NCBI GenBank assembly: GCA_018660685.1
Contig: JABJJW010000016.1
Location: 1 to 42,200, forward strand
Direction: 5' to 3'
Origin: Flavobacteriales bacterium
Lineage (GTDB): Bacteria; Bacteroidota; Bacteroidia; Flavobacteriales_G; Salibacteraceae
Length of the DNA: 42,200 nucleotides
Shown: in pieces, positions 36,917 through 42,200 of the stretch
Layout: each line of letters begins with the position of its first letter
Numbering within the stretch: the first letter of the stretch is position 1
The notes under the pieces: generated by a model
The model's input: the letters and a program-made list of their open reading frames with translations, nothing else
Database searches by the model: none
Told to the model about the DNA's origin: nothing
Position numbers and translations under genes: made by a program

Positions 36917-38533
36917 TTATTTTTTGACAACTATCTTGGTCCTTAGCCCTTGGGAAGACATTACTTGGACAACATATAGTCCTTTTGCGAGCATCTTTAA
37001 GTTTATCTGACTCGGTAATGGTGTGATGTTCTTTTGGACAAGTCGTCCATTCAAGTCAATAATGGAGACCTCTACGAGTTCGGTGCTTTGAATATTCCAG
37101 TCAAGATTTAGGAGGCCAGGGGTTGGGTTTGGAAAGAGTCGAAGGTTCTCATTATTAAGTATCTCATCATTTCCAATTACGTAATCGCACGGCTCTGACG
37201 GATTAGATAGCGTATAGCCAGTAAGCGTAGCTGGCAGGCCTGTTTTGACTCCGGATCCCACGCTTGATGACACAATGTTCACTGTAGGATTTATAACCGA
37301 GGCCTGAATGCTAATACTGGTGTCATGACAGACATTCACCCCGGCACTATCTGTTTTGATTAAGTACACATCTGAATGCGCAACGCCGAATCCCATCGTG
37401 TAGCCAGCAATGATGAACCCCTGATCATCCGTCTGTTTTATAGATCGAGCAAAATCACCTAGGTCGCTGCCGATGGCACGTCCAAATTGCACATCTCCAC
37501 TATCGCTGAGTTTCAGGAGGAGAACATCTTCGTCACCAGCACCATAACTGCTCGTATGCCCCGTAATTGAAAAGCTACCATCAGTACACAGATCGATGGA
37601 CTGGCCTGATTCAGATTCTGCACCTCCATAAGCATTTGACCATTCAATGTTACCGATCGAATCAATCTTGATTGCAATGACATCGGCCTTACCAGCTCCA
37701 AAACTGTGAGAAGTCCCACAAATAACGAAACCACTGTCCGGTGTACTTGTCACAGAGTAGCCCTATTCATTCTCAACCCCACCATAGGTCTTCTCCCATT
37801 CGATGTTTCCATCAGCGGTTGTCTTGATAGCATACACATCTGAACTGGACGCCCCGAAGCTGAAGGAATAACCCACCATGAATAATCCCCCATCTGGAGA
37901 TTGGATAACCTTGGTCAGTGCGTCTATTGATTCGCCACCAAAGGTTTTGTTCCATACAAGGTCTCCATCCAAGTCAATTCTCAAAACATAGCCATCTCGG
38001 ACATCCACATTGCCACTTTCTGTAAAGCCCACAATCACGAAATCTCCATTCGCAGTCTCAAGAACTGCCTCAGAGTAGTCAGCTTCGGTTGTGCCGTAAG
38101 TCTTTGACCAGAGCAGGTTGCCTAAGGAATCGACCTTGACAACGTAGACGTCAGCTAGACCTGCTCCGAACCCATGAACTTCGCCGACCATGAGATACCC
38201 ATTGTCACTCGTTTGAATCGCGTGATATCCAAGATTTCCGCCGTTGTGACGAGCATTAGAGTCAACCTTCCGGCCGTAAGTCCTTGCCCATATAGTGTCT
38301 CCGAACTGATCTGTTTTGATGAGGTAGAATTCTGAAGTGAAAAGAGCAGTCATATCGTACCATCCAGCAACGATGTATCCGCCATCATTGGTGAGCTCTA
38401 CAGAGTTTGCTTGATTTCCATGCGCGTTTCCAAATGTTTTCTGAAACGTGATTTGCGATAGAACAGCTTCCGTGGAAAAGAGAAAGACCCAAACGAGCAG
38501 AAATCGGAATATGAAATGGAATGGTTTCAACAT
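36917..38533 (-). pseudogene. T9SS-exported propeller-like repeat protein split by an in-frame amber stop
   Basis: From ATG 38533 the frame has a signal peptide (FIFRFLLVWVFLFSTEAVLS). At least six repeated segments follow, with the pattern 'DGGYIVAG ... DVYVIKxDxxGxxxWxKTYGG' (about 50-60 residues each). The same frame is interrupted by TAG at 37763-37765 in the middle of a repeat, after YGGVENE, and continues with GYSVTSTPDSGFVICG. It ends with a T9SS sorting domain (LFPNPTPGLLNLDW to KIVVKK). Without the stop the protein would be about 538 residues. The second half alone could only start at GTG 37753, without an export signal. Reading either as separate genes is unlikely. A recent mutation or a sequencing error are the main alternatives. 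Confidence 0.7.
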
Positions 38534-38638
38534 GCGGACTGAGGTACGAATATGTAGTTTACATCCATATGCTGAGTGCGGAATTCTGGGCACGTTGGTT
38601 TCCATACATTCGGCCAGTCCGAAAAACATACACCTTAC

Positions 38639-38965
38639 ATGAATAATTGTCCTTCTTGCAACTCAGAACATGCTTATTCAACCGGAATACTGATGGCTTG
38701 TCCAGAATGTGGACATGAGTGGAATCCTGATGAATTAGAGGAGGAAGTTGGTGAACGAGTTTTGGATGCAAACGGTAATGAGCTTCAGAGCGGAGACTCG
38801 GTCATTGTTCTCAAAAACCTTCCCGTCAAAGGATCGCCGCAGCCAATTAAGGCGGGCACTAAGGTGAAAAACATCAGGCTGACAGACGGTGACCATAACA
38901 TTGATTGTAAGATCGATGGCTTTGGTTCAATGGCGTTGAAATCAGAGTTTGTGAAGAAGGCTTAG
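38639..38965 (+). CDS. yjdM: YjdM (PhnA-like) zinc ribbon protein
   Basis: The 108-residue product has an N-terminal zinc ribbon with two CxxC pairs ([10 protein letters not shown] and CPECGHEW) and a C-terminal SH3-like PhnA domain with [28 protein letters not shown] and [13 protein letters not shown]. Members are called alkylphosphonate utilisation operon proteins because of E. coli phnA, but they do not cleave phosphonates and no phn genes lie nearby. The role is unknown. ATG at 38639 was chosen because the zinc ribbon begins there as in the family. The frame is open further upstream, but that part has no family-like residues. It is divergent from the split T9SS gene; its stop is five bases before a tRNA-derived direct repeat. 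Confidence 0.9.
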
Positions 38966-38970
38966 TTGTT

Positions 38971-39028
38971 AGAAACAAAAAATCCCCGCTAATACGAGGA
39001 TGATTTGCTATGCGGAGAGTGAGGGATT
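38971..39028. repeat. att-like direct repeat, distal copy carrying a tRNA-Ser 3' fragment
   Basis: This 58-bp segment repeats at 39138-39195 with two mismatches. On the minus strand it contains the last 16 bases of the tRNA-Ser (from inside the T-loop to the discriminator base, 39028-39013) plus its terminator hairpin and T-run (38977-39001). The flanking bases on both sides do not match those of the other copy, so the repeat has sharp edges. Such a copy at a distance from the intact gene is what an integrated or lost element leaves. Confidence 0.85.
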
Positions 39029-39137
39029 ATTCCATGATCCCATTTTTATTGAGGAGGTTCAGACCAAATCATCCTCACTCATTTCATTCGTCTGTGATCT
39101 TTGTTCCCAACCTTATCCAAGCAAGCTTGCAACGGCC

Positions 39138-39195
39138 AGAAACAAAAAATCCCCGCTAATGCGAGGATGATTTGTTATGCGGAGAGTGAGGGATT
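39138..39195. repeat. att-like direct repeat, tRNA-proximal copy
   Basis: This is the proximal copy of the 58-bp direct repeat, overlapping the 3' end of the intact tRNA-Ser gene and its terminator. Compared with 38971-39028 it differs at two positions (A/G and C/T). A 109-bp unique segment separates the copies. Confidence 0.85.
39144..39168 (-). terminator. Terminator of tRNA-Ser
   Basis: On the minus strand, ATCCTCGC pairs with GCGGGGAT around an ATTA loop and is followed by T residues. It is 11 bases beyond the tRNA 3' end. Confidence 0.75.
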
Positions 39196-39264
39196 CGAAC
39201 CCCCGGACCCGTGAAGATCAATAGTTTTCAAGACTACCGCATTCGACCACTCTGCCAACTCTCC
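39180..39264 (-). tRNA. tRNA-Ser (UGA anticodon)
   Basis: The minus strand folds into a class II tRNA. Acceptor arms GGAGAGT and ACTCTCC pair fully and are followed by discriminator G. The D arm starts with GCA pairing to TGC. The anticodon arm is GTAGT-CTTGAAA-ACTAT, with TGA at positions 34-36 (reads UCA). A long variable arm follows, and then the T arm GGGGG-TTCGAAT-CCCTC. CCA is not encoded. The serine identity fits the long variable arm and G73. It is a known type of integration target, and its 3' end is duplicated at 39013-39028. Confidence 0.95.
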
Positions 39265-39266
39265 GC

Positions 39267-39388
39267 TGCAAAAGTAAAATCATTTTGATACGTTAAAATG
39301 TAAGTTTCAAGAAGATTTTTCCGGAACCCTTTCCGCTTAAAAATCAGATATTTGGGTAGGACTCAACAAGCAATACTCACTGACTATC
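39267..39388. other. Intergenic stretch upstream of tRNA-Ser and the desaturase relic
   Basis: Apart from the tRNA, its terminator and repeats, and the relic after 39389, the 38966-39712 interval holds no recognisable gene. The 109 bp between the direct repeats (39029-39137) and this stretch show no coding pattern I trust. The tRNA promoter must lie just right of 39264, but I do not see a clear -7 box on the minus strand. Confidence 0.4.
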
Positions 39389-39649
39389 AGTATTACATTA
39401 GAAATACAACGACTCGTTTCGAAACCCATATTCAGAGAGTTACACCGCGTAGATGATGTTCGGAGTATTTTGAATCTCTTGTTTGAATGGACATTCATCG
39501 TTGGTGTAGTTATGCTAAGCGAACAGTTCTTTTCGTGGCCGCTGTATCTTTTATCCATTATCCTCATAGGCTCTCGAAGAATTCTAAACCAAGACTTTGA
39601 GATCATGAAAAAGGCAGCAACTATAAAGAGGCAAATTAAGACTACATAG
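39389..39649 (+). pseudogene. Relic of a fatty acid desaturase N-terminus
   Basis: A frame without any ATG start runs from an upstream TAA at 39338-39340 to TAG at 39647-39649. Its middle portion (about 39437-39580) reads as the N-terminal membrane segment of a bacterial fatty acid desaturase: LHRVDDVRSILNLLFEW, then FSWPLYLLSIILIGSR. In intact family members this leads into a QHAL ... LMHDxxH histidine box. Here the reading continues instead with RILNQDFEIMKKAA and stops. Catalytic histidine boxes are absent. The recognition rests on pattern memory of the LYLLxxxLIGSR segment, and I rate it modestly. It is most likely a deletion remnant and not translated. Confidence 0.4.
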
Positions 39650-39686
39650 CAGCTATACTCTACAGCCTGAACCAGCTAATTTTAAA

Positions 39687-39694
39687 TATCTTTG
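39687..39694 (+). promoter_or_regulatory. Candidate -7 box for the gene at 39713
   Basis: TATCTTTG matches TAnnTTTG exactly, 18 bases before the ATG at 39713. There is no clear -33 TTG at the usual spacing. Confidence 0.35.
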
Positions 39695-39712
39695 AAATAG
39701 AGCTTATTACCT

Positions 39713-40465
39713 ATGAGATTCCTTTCTGCTCTGTCTTCGCTTTTGCTTTCACTTTCTCTCAATGCCCAAAGCATAGCAGATTACAAGACCACTCAATCTG
39801 GAGTGTCATTTACTGAGAATAAAGGGCAGGTTTCTGACCAGCATTACAACCCTCGTCCTGATGTGCTCTATAGCGGTAATAGCGGAGGGTTGAACTTCCA
39901 TATACGAACTGATGGTATCAGCTACCAGATGACTCGAATCGACTCATGGAAAGAAGATGATATGGGTCTACCAGAGGAATTAGCTATGCCAGATGGCGCC
40001 AGTCAACCTAAGGACTCAGTGATTGATCAAATGACCATCTACCGAACCGATATTAATTGGATTGGAGCAAGAAGCAATTTTGAGGTTGAAACAGGAAGGG
40101 CTAAACAAGGCTACAATAACTACTATCTACCGACCTGTCCAGATGGTGCTTTGAATGTTCTATCGTATGATGAGGTAACTTTTAAGAACCTCTATGAGGG
40201 TATTGATCTGAAATGGTACAGTAACGAAGGCGCATTAGAATATGACTTCATAGTTTCCCCGAATACAGACTACAGTCAAATCAAGTGGGAGATTGAGGGA
40301 GCCGAGGAGATATCTATTGGAGATGAAGGACAGCTAATCATTACCACACCACTGGGTAAGATCGAGGAGCAAGCTCCAATTGCCTTTCAAGGTGAGCAAG
40401 AAGTAGACATCGTTAAAAATTTCATCTTAAGTATACGGCGACTGCTCCTCACGCGATCAAAATAA
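39713..40465 (+). pseudogene. Truncated N-terminal fragment of a large gliding/SBBP-type exported protein (DUF7948-like)
   Basis: The 250-codon frame has a signal peptide (FLSALSSLLLSLSLNAQ). A complete-looking N-terminal domain follows, of the type found in large Bacteroidota surface proteins with SBBP or gliding-motility C-terminal modules. Blocks are SGVSFTENKGQVSDQHYNPR, DVLYSGNSGGLNFHIRTDG, YNNYYLPTCPDGA, YEGIDLKWYSNEGALEYDF and APIAFQGEQEV. Family members normally run on for hundreds of residues. Here the frame ends soon after, within a short inverted-repeat element that begins at 40431. The last residues (IRRLLLTRSK) come from that element, so truncation by insertion is likely. It may still be exported, but lacks any sorting domain. 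Confidence 0.68.
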
Positions 40466-40560: not shown

Positions 40561-40635
40561 CACGGGGCTCTACTTTCGTCGAAAATGAAGATTGCCTTCC
40601 TCCAAAAGTTTATTCTTGACCAAAATCTATTCAAC

Positions 40636-42200
40636 ATGAGACATTTAATTCTCACAATTTCTTGCGGTTTTCTCATCTCAACTTTATTTGGACAAGATGT
40701 CCTAATAATTCATGATAACGGGAGCACATTTTCTAATACAGTTAGTTTAAAGGATACCTTGGATAGTGAGGGGTTTGACGTCACGATAACTACCGTAAAT
40801 GAATCAAATTGGAATAATACAAATCCATCCGTTTCTGGTTTTGATGCTGTCATTCATTTGAATGGAACGTCATACGCAAGTGAAATGCCGCAAGCGGGGC
40901 AGATTGCTTTGAATGACTTTGTAGAGGACGATGAAGGATTGTATATAGGTTTCGAGTGGAACTCGTATCAAAGGTTTGTTTTAAATGAACTTCAAAACTT
41001 GGATGATTTAATACTTTTTCAGAGGACTTCTGGGGCTACGGGTTCGCCAACCCATACTATTTCTGCTGGTCAAACGAATCACCCTGTACTCTCTGGAGTT
41101 CCGAATTCTTTCTCCGTGTATGATGGGTATAATATTGGGAATTTACGAACACTATCTGGCTCTACGCTCTTGATGCAATCTGGATCGAACCCTTTAGTCG
41201 CCGTGAGGGATTTTGGTCAAGGTCACATTTTAAACTTTGCCATGGCAGCTAACTACAGTCAGGGTAATAGCACTGTGCTAACAAATAGTCATATTCAAAC
41301 AATAATTATAAACTTTATAAGAGAATACGCCTTCAATGTAGAGATTATACAAGATTCGTCTATTCTATGTTATGGGGACTCAACAGCAGTTCTCTCAGCA
41401 GATGTTATTGGCGGAGATTCGCCCTATACATATTTATGGAGCAATGGAGATACGTCTTTATCGATTTCTGGGCTCGATACTGGCACATATGGCGTAACAG
41501 TTACTGACAGCGTGGGGGATCAAACCTCAAACTCCTTTATTGTTAGTGAACCAACTGAATTAATTGCTTCTCTGGGGTATCAGGAGAATATTCTTTGTCC
41601 AAATGATTCAAATGGCATTGCATTTGTTGCTACGAATTTGGGTGGAATCCAGCCTTATACGTATGCTTGGAACGATGGCTCAATTAATGATACAAATACG
41701 AATTTACCGCTAGGTCCATTTACTTGCACTGTATCAGATTCTAATAATTGTATATCGACTTACACTGGGACTATAGTTTCGTTAGATATTACGGCCCCGA
41801 CTGCAGTAGGACAAAACCTGACAGTTTACCTTGACGCTAGTGGATCTGCGAGCATCACTGCGGCACAGGTAGATAATGGCTCGAGTGATAATTGCAGTGT
41901 GGATTCTCTCTACCTAGATCAAACTGACTTTGATTGCTCTGACACGGTAGTTAATGAAGTCACTCTCACAGCGGTTGATGCATCAGGCAATAGCTCTTCT
42001 GTAACAGCTGACATCACTGTTTTAGATACGATCTCTCCTACGATGGCGAGCCAGAACTTGACGGTTTACCTAGATGCAACGGGCGGAGCTAGCATCACTG
42101 CGGCACAAGTCGACAGTGGCTCATCGGACAACTGCAGTGTGGACTTAAGTCTTTCTCCGAGCGATTTCACTTGCATGAATGAGGGATCTAATACAGTCGC
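40636..42200 (+). CDS. Large repeat-containing surface protein / adhesin (SprB-like and HYR-like repeats), 3' end outside window
   Basis: The frame opens at ATG 40636 and stays open for 521 codons to the window edge. A signal peptide (LILTISCGFLISTLFG) precedes QDVLIIHDNG. Residues about 20-235 form an alpha/beta domain that could be a Rossmann-like/ThuA-type fold (DVLIIHDNGSTFS, GFDAVIHLNG, GQGHILNFAMAANYSQG); this is tentative. Two SprB/PKD-like repeats follow, at about 240-310 and 311-380 (ILCYGDSTAVLSA, SPYTYLWSNGDTSLSI, TGTYGVTVTDS). From residue 384 come 80-residue HYR-like units with SDNCSVD and VTLTAVDASGNSSS. Such proteins in Bacteroidota are T9SS-exported and can support surface adhesion or gliding. 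The C-terminal sorting domain is expected outside the window. Confidence 0.8.
   Translation, partial: MRHLILTISCGFLISTLFGQDVLIIHDNGSTFSNTVSLKDTLDSEGFDVTITTVNESNWNNTNPSVSGFDAVIHLNGTSYASEMPQAGQIALNDFVEDDEGLYIGFEWNSYQRFVLNELQNLDDLILFQRTSGATGSPTHTISAGQTNHPVLSGVPNSFSVYDGYNIGNLRTLSGSTLLMQSGSNPLVAVRDFGQGHILNFAMAANYSQGNSTVLTNSHIQTIIINFIREYAFNVEIIQDSSILCYGDSTAVLSADVIGGDSPYTYLWSNGDTSLSISGLDTGTYGVTVTDSVGDQTSNSFIVSEPTELIASLGYQENILCPNDSNGIAFVATNLGGIQPYTYAWNDGSINDTNTNLPLGPFTCTVSDSNNCISTYTGTIVSLDITAPTAVGQNLTVYLDASGSASITAAQVDNGSSDNCSVDSLYLDQTDFDCSDTVVNEVTLTAVDASGNSSSVTADITVLDTISPTMASQNLTVYLDATGGASITAAQVDSGSSDNCSVDLSLSPSDFTCMNEGSNTV
41785..42200 (+). repeat. 240-bp tandem repeat (HYR-like units) in the adhesin
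   Basis: The first unit spans 41785-42024 and the second starts at 42025 and is cut by the window edge. Both encode a Pro-Thr lead, NLTVYLDA, SITAAQVD and SDNCSVD at equal spacing. A 17-base stretch (AGCATCACTGCGGCACA) is identical between units. The array probably continues. Confidence 0.8.

Follow-up and report, generated by a model that had tools for sequence, protein, structure and literature searches.

In the 42,200-nt stretch of Flavobacteriales DNA analysed here (hereafter the window), an intact tRNA-Ser(UGA) gene is followed by a second, displaced copy of its own 3' end, which raises the question of what lies between the two copies and how it came to be there. The preliminary description of the locus had reported a 58-bp direct repeat with two mismatches behind the tRNA gene, its second copy 109 bp away from the first, and had read it as an integration site at the tRNA 3' end whose element had been excised or eroded down to 109 bp. 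A repeat search recovered both the repeat and the 109-bp spacer (56/58 identical, start-to-start distance of 167 bp; Table 1), this being the single direct-repeat family in 38500-40000, and we judge such a match at such a spacing to be far beyond chance.

The tRNA-Ser locus and the unit behind it

Read in the direction of the tRNA, the repeat runs from the T-loop (AATCC) to just past the T-run of the terminator, and consists of 17 tRNA bases, rather than the 16 previously counted in the distal copy, followed by 41 bases of trailer and terminator. The window thereby holds an intact tRNA gene together with a displaced cognate 3' fragment in the same orientation. No integrase gene lies between the repeat copies, which are 109 bp apart, and no gene remnants there were found among the listed open reading frames, of which those of at least 90 aa end at 38965 and restart at 39713. 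Beyond them, a long open frame with repeated domains (40585-42198) runs off the right end of the window and apparently continues at the start of contig C24 of the same genome; window and contig share an overlap of 217 bp there (99.5% identity).

The 109-bp spacer is one copy of a conserved structured unit, rather than an eroded prophage. In the tRNA direction, the order of its parts is the P1 5' strand, P2, P3, P4, the P1 3' strand, an AACCTCC(CC) stretch, P5 (GGGATCA..TAATCC) and the second copy of the tRNA end (Table 1). In the repeat search, the inverted partner of the trailer (39060-39076 against 39163-39179) was 88% complementary to it, and since the spacer holds both this partner and a T-arm-like hairpin (39024-39041), it is structurally tied to the tRNA trailer. 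Both features had been overlooked in the preliminary description. Compared with the T-arm, GGGTTC-G-AATCCC, P5 has a T-to-A change at the first loop base and a hairpin tip inserted in place of the apical G, and from its letters it can be read as a modified T-arm.

Folding of the window alone was moderately better than that of shuffled sequences (z of -2.39 as DNA and -2.27 as RNA). P4 of the window is weak and absent from the minimum free energy fold, and the window's own P3 has no match to the related apex motif that is unit-specific in the genus. RNAalifold, applied to the P4-P5 alignment, returned the P5 helix only, at a weak energy of -0.75 kcal/mol, so that the evidence for P1 and P3 comes from our own pairing test, described below.

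Table 1. Features of the tRNA-Ser locus, with positions counted from the first letter of the window
Feature	Position	Strand	Basis
tRNA-Ser(UGA), intact; target gene	39179..39264	-	ARAGORN (anticodon TGA); Rfam RF00005, 58.6 bits at 39180-39264
Proximal 58-bp repeat copy: T-loop AATCC, acceptor 3' strand, trailer, terminator	39138..39195	-	Repeat search and alignment
P1 5' strand, from the base that follows the discriminator and closes the ARAGORN tRNA call, through the trailer	39161..39179	-	Pairing test; inverted repeat
P2, terminator hairpin overlapping P1; T-run 39143-39148	39149..39168	-	RNA fold
P3, long hairpin with CAAGCTTGCTTG at its centre; the terminator T-run pairs with an A-run at its base	39098..39148	-	RNA fold
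P4, small hairpin ACGAATGAAATGAGT (AC-GA-AT-GAA-AT-GA-GT); GAGCGAAGCGA type in relatives	39079..39093	-	Inferred from sequence comparison
P1 3' strand	39060..39078	-	Inverted repeat; pairing test
C-rich stretch AACCTCCTC; AACCTCCCC in many Ser units	39051..39059	-	Sequence comparison; pairing test
P5, T-arm-like hairpin GGGATCATGGAATAATCC; proposed attachment-site hairpin	39024..39041	-	Covariance model R1 match 39024-39117, E 8.9e-14 (scan of the full window, which is itself among the 20 R1 training sequences)
Second copy of the tRNA acceptor 3' strand, CTCACTCTCCGC	39012..39023	-	12/12 identical to the tRNA end
Distal 58-bp repeat copy; 5 bp separate its end from the stop codon of the convergent PhnA/YjdM gene	38971..39028	-	Repeat search and alignment
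PhnA/YjdM-like gene, convergent with the tRNA; outer boundary marker	38576..38965	+	PF03831, E 4.9e-33; PF08274, E 5.2e-11

Distribution of the unit behind tRNA and tmRNA genes

When the region was compared by BLAST with 60 relatives, tRNA-Ser genes (TGA, GGA and GCT) came up that have an equal arrangement behind them. The survey used a covariance model, R1, made from 20 P4-P5 stretches, the window's included and most of them from its genus; the model ends at the AATCC of P5 and contains no acceptor or trailer sequence. It was briefly calibrated, so its E-values are loose, and most of the genomes are draft metagenome-assembled genomes (MAGs). R1 gave 52 matches at E<=0.05 within the genus, in 12 of its 13 genomes, and tRNA context was taken for 49 of the 52, leaving out three weak ones (E 0.017-0.046). 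Among the 39 matches at E<=1e-3, 30 had a tRNA or tmRNA gene upstream on the same strand: 22 start 62-76 nt behind it, 7 are further units at 103-301 nt and 1 starts at -1. The other nine comprise 7 matches at contig ends and 2 that lie away from contig ends without a tRNA in view (G005:C43:1355 and G011:C24:1136).

A similar spacing recurs in other genera of the family. Outside the genus R1 gave 37 matches, or 34 held-out ones once 3 training loci had been removed. First units starting 58-89 nt behind a tRNA or tmRNA gene account for 22 of these 34, while 8 lie at 167-357 nt, 7 of them following a first unit that was itself matched, and the remaining 4 are at contig ends. Moreover, a separate pattern for the P3 apex matched 8 places in the 13 genus genomes and none when it was read backwards; 6 of the 8 are known tRNA-linked units, and the other 2 form a double unit behind a tRNA-Gln gene.

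We then extended the survey with two broader collections. A strict pattern for the C-rich stretch and P5 found 15 stretches in 84,980 species genomes, all of them in MAGs labelled Bacteroidales, Flavobacteriales, Salibacteraceae, Bacteroidetes or Chlorobiota; five of the 15 are contigs of genomes G002, G003 and G011. Eleven lie behind tRNA-Ser, and four have no upstream tRNA in the stored DNA. In a coarse sample of the phylum, R1 matched in at least 12 of 296 genomes, a figure that rests on 14 scored candidates per genome and implies no prevalence. The units of this sample lie behind tRNA-Ser, -Arg and -Pro, with no tRNA in view for three (L223, L208 and L206) among the 16 loci listed. Across all surveys, the target genes are those for tRNA-Ser (four anticodons), Arg, Pro, Val, Asp, His and Gln, and tmRNA.

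The length from the tRNA end to P5 was 124-154 nt in 39 loci. The P3 apex motif, the P4 type, the C-rich/TCGGA-like box and P5 recur across loci and genera, which indicates that the units share descent, and two tRNA-Ser loci of G002 carry units that are 92% identical (next best pair, 82%; 23 loci compared). The spacer of the window is hence a complete unit of a hairpin-sharing family of tight length that occurs behind many tRNA genes, and the notion of an element excised or eroded down to 109 bp is not supported. Occupancy differs among relatives: the tRNA-Ser(TGA) genes of G003, G004, G009, G010, G016 and G041 have no unit in the 520 nt read, in species that are too distant for a one-step comparison.

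Pairing of units with their tRNA genes and copying of tRNA ends

To quantify P1 and P5 we used 41 loci collected by pattern, of which 2 false ones were discarded, leaving 39. P1 was scored as the pairing of the trailer with the segment before the C-rich box. The mean score of the 39 loci with their own partners was 30.2, compared with a mean of 17.7 and a maximum of 20.7 when partners were permuted (5000 permutations). The own partner was the best of all in 26/39 loci, and the score fell below 24 in 9/39. As a control, 32 presumed non-carrier tRNA genes had a mean P1 score of 15.4; the top control, tRNA-Val(GAC) of the window's own genome (score of 30), was found to carry a unit with a decayed P5. 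Of the 32 tRNA genes seen in the own genome, 28 of which could be followed for 260 nt downstream, at least three are therefore carriers. The tRNA-Val(GAC) unit (L159; G000:C28:38780-39110) had been picked up by neither R1 nor the P5 pattern.

In the 30/39 loci with a P1 score of at least 24, P1 contains 499 Watson-Crick, 7 GT and 6 AC pairs, with no surplus of G-U pairs such as a transcript of one strand would be expected to show. In 38/39 loci, across C, T and A variants, P5 has an outer base complementary to that in the T-stem of the unit's own tRNA. A C-A mismatch in P5 occurs in 39/39 loci and is partly built in, as the collecting patterns fix part of the P5 sequence. The hairpins, and the fact that G-T mismatches in P1 are as rare as A-C ones, would suit folded DNA as the functional form of the unit better than an RNA of one strand. 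An antisense small RNA had been considered because the C-A mismatch of P5 would be a U-G pair on the other strand; this reading was not supported, as P1 has no strand bias (7 GT, 6 AC) and the sense strand is favoured energetically in 22/39 loci.

The extent of the copied tRNA end was analysed in 19 loci picked for a visible or suspected distal copy, with start points taken from a 45-nt tRNA-end query and end points from a query beginning 18 nt before the tRNA end. In 14 of the 19 the copied stretch starts exactly at the T-loop AATCC. The five exceptions start a few bases inside (L032 and L181), show a weak gapped extension (L034), align to a neighbouring tRNA (L131) or start elsewhere (L177). 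End points are more varied. The repeat runs through the terminator in 6/19 loci, the window included, which differs from the textbook end point. In 5/19 it covers approximately the tRNA end only, stopping exactly there in L072 (a tmRNA gene) and L184, where unrelated terminators follow, and in another 5/19 the tRNA end is followed by a different trailer. A long second unit is present in 2/19 (L034 and L202, the second copies agreeing at 90/92 over the 92 nt compared), and in 1/19 only a part of P3 aligns. A distal tRNA copy of at least 75% identity was retained in only 13 of the 39 loci.

In two loci (L041 and L131), two units of differing sequence are stacked, each with its own tRNA end, resembling tandem accretion. 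Together with the start of the copied stretch at the T-loop and the exact stops in L072 and L184, such stacks give the locus family the look of insertion at the tRNA 3' end. This part of the earlier integration-site reading, an insertion-like arrangement with the tRNA end restored, has thus held up, unlike the excised or eroded element that went with it. A tyrosine recombinase acting at the locus is plausible; the sublocation of tyrosine integrases in tRNA genes was reportedly treated by Williams in 2002.

Some arrays repeat P4-P5 without any tRNA part, which indicates that slippage or unequal crossing-over also takes place. Tandem near-identical P4-P5 units of about 90-100 bp occur at a contig end with no tRNA in view (L139; G004:C46:18767-18884). 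In another array (L121; G005:C43), units flank a 326-aa open frame of unknown function. Elsewhere, a four-helix-bundle (PF05635) gene lies between a tmRNA gene and a unit (L137; G006:C3), either as possible cargo or as a chance insertion.

Known systems and the origin of the units

The signature in the window bears likeness to several known systems. In the Islander concept (PMC4383910), an island is recognised at its two ends by a regenerated tRNA gene and by a displaced 3' fragment of like orientation, tandem arrays of islands carrying their own tRNA fragments occur, and the search targets multigene islands that encode a tyrosine integrase, whose sizes peak at 13.6 and 39.9 kbp. The intact tRNA, the displaced 3' end in the same orientation and the tandem stacking are common to such tRNA/tmRNA islands and the units; the units differ in being gene-less and about 110-170 bp long, whereas the islands are multigene and carry an integrase.

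Integron cassettes are likewise small tandem units, whose attC site is a folded hairpin with a variable tip and core boxes RYYYAAC/GTTRRRY. The units resemble them in size, tandem arrangement, folded-hairpin site and variable tip, but their target is the tRNA T-arm and they have no attC boxes: 0/39 units contained the boxes, against a mean of 0.86 in shuffles. The integron integrase model TIGR02249 had no match above its cut-off in the 13 genus genomes, the best sub-threshold match reaching 147 of 265 bits (G006). An integron reading was rejected, with neither attC boxes nor an integrase above the cut-off. Weaker tyrosine-recombinase matches occurred in 13/13 genus genomes and in 14/14 control genomes.

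REP/BIME repeats, which go with RAYT Y1 transposases, and MITE-like repeats are non-coding, hairpin-rich and multi-copy, as are the units. Unlike REP/RAYT, the units are tied to tRNA 3' ends, and R1 matches occur in 12/13 genus genomes as against 4/13 for the transposase domain PF01797; the latter is also absent from the own genome, and RAYT transposases were rejected as a general mover. A four-helix-bundle (23S IVP) partner, suggested by the tmRNA-IVP-unit order in G006, was not supported either: PF05635 has 39 matches across all 13 genus genomes, and apart from L137, R1 (E<=1) found no unit at the 12 other IVP loci scanned. Structured intergenic units are also typical of Rfam families, but at gathering threshold the unit matches none, the tRNA alone reaching it in the window and in six element loci, where all other rows scored below theirs.

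We consider it somewhat probable that the window holds a tRNA-Ser gene with an inserted, very small, gene-less integrative element, and the units behind many tRNA genes in relatives suggest a very small, undescribed type of mobile element for which tRNA genes serve as landing sites. Displaced ends with unrelated terminators, stacked unrelated units, sporadic occupancy and near-identical units at different tRNA genes are all outcomes of site-specific insertion into tRNA genes, following the principle in PMC4383910, and we infer that the units are small integrative elements, non-autonomous and attaching at tRNA T-arms. More tentatively, we propose a Bacteroidota-wide family of gene-less elements of about 110-170 bp that would move as folded DNA, with P5 mimicking the target T-arm as the attachment site, and with a recombinase supplied in trans inserting them into many tRNA and tmRNA genes at the T-loop, such that every insertion would re-supply the tRNA end and terminator and stack before older ones.

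In this scheme, the recombinase would recognise the T-arm palindrome of the tRNA gene (GGGTTCGAATCCC) and its imitation in P5, these being the chromosomal and the element attachment hairpins, respectively, and the cross-over would occur at the loop of T-arm and P5. The incoming unit would carry its own tRNA 3' end, trailer and terminator, so that the tRNA would remain functional, while the original 3' end would be displaced and come to lie beyond P5. The displaced end in the window keeps the same trailer and terminator, as might result from a donor from the same kind of locus or from a second unit copy that was later truncated. Neither a recombinase gene, nor a circular form, nor a strain-level pair of empty and filled sites was found in these mostly draft genomes, which include no close strains, and a literature search aimed at the element found no description of it.

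A resident role has to be weighed against insertion. The units could be host-useful bidirectional terminators or insulators, or tRNA-processing elements, whose copies spread and were homogenised by gene conversion, slippage and unequal crossing-over, the duplicated tRNA end being a by-product. P2 terminates in the tRNA direction, and by eye the A-run with P4 reads as a terminator in the other; the tightly fixed position and length and the P4-P5 arrays without tRNA parts would also suit such a role. We nevertheless consider it rather unlikely: units are sporadic within the own genome and missing behind the orthologous tRNA genes in relatives; unrelated terminators after displaced tRNA ends, and stacks of unrelated units, are not what it would lead one to expect; and a T-arm imitation has no obvious use in termination. 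Local birth by replication template switching at the quasi-palindromic tRNA terminator (a direct, an inverted and a direct copy), followed by retention, is improbable. It would place the inverted trailer partner between two direct copies, as seen, would make P1 locus-specific, and through arm homogenisation would yield P1 mismatches without strand bias, as in the 30/39 loci. De novo origin predicts no shared cores, however, and the P3 apex, P4 type, C-rich/TCGGA-like box and P5 are shared across loci and genera; template switching may account for the homogenised arms, though not for these cores.

The earlier proposal, in which the repeat is the footprint of an ordinary integrated phage or island with its interior deleted, appears very improbable to us. 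The repeat does lie at a tRNA 3' end, and the sequence behind the tRNA-Ser genes of L038 and L046 resembles larger insertions by eye, but the spacer belongs to a recurring kind of unit whose size varies little, no gene remnants are listed between the copies, and the unit was not recognised on viral contigs. Scans of the latter with three patterns gave 0, 15 and 0 stretches; in the 15, which came from the looser pattern, no tRNA was called and no P1-P4 was seen by eye, and none resembles the element, so that a phage origin was rejected. Phage records matched in the tRNA part alone among the matches listed (20 of 23). A plain tandem duplication, in which a 167-bp unit was copied without any recombinase and its second copy was then shortened, is scarcely credible. 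The window does have a unit and a partial second one, and L034 and L202 have long second copies, yet duplication leaves the 109-bp unit itself unexplained, and as the sole process it is refuted by the second tRNA ends with unrelated terminators in L072 and L184.

If mobile, the units would, to our knowledge, be the smallest known tRNA-targeting integrative elements, having no gene and yet re-supplying the tRNA end. Such elements would illustrate how few components suffice once the recombinase of another element is borrowed, and would hint at an as yet unknown recombinase capable of reading the hairpins of T-arms. Should the units serve the host instead, they would represent a new and widespread type of flank at tRNA 3' ends. 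In both cases, what readers of genomes would take for an eroded prophage is a defined element, which tools that map islands by tRNA fragments will encounter.

Two further loci of the own genome and one of the phylum sample were of note. An orphan unit (L002; G000:C24:813-960) has the last 3' bases of a tRNA-Ser and P1-P4-like sequence with no tRNA body, and is located behind a protein gene; it may lie about 0.6 kb past the end of the window, inverted with respect to the unit at 39 kb. The tRNA-Arg(TCG) unit (L126; G000:C12:43854-44056) has a second P5-like hairpin behind it, close to where the contig ends. At L206 (G090:C41:88190), a unit lies behind a tRNA-Ser-like 3' fragment without a tRNA body, and the neighbouring sequence resembles the end of a larger inserted element.
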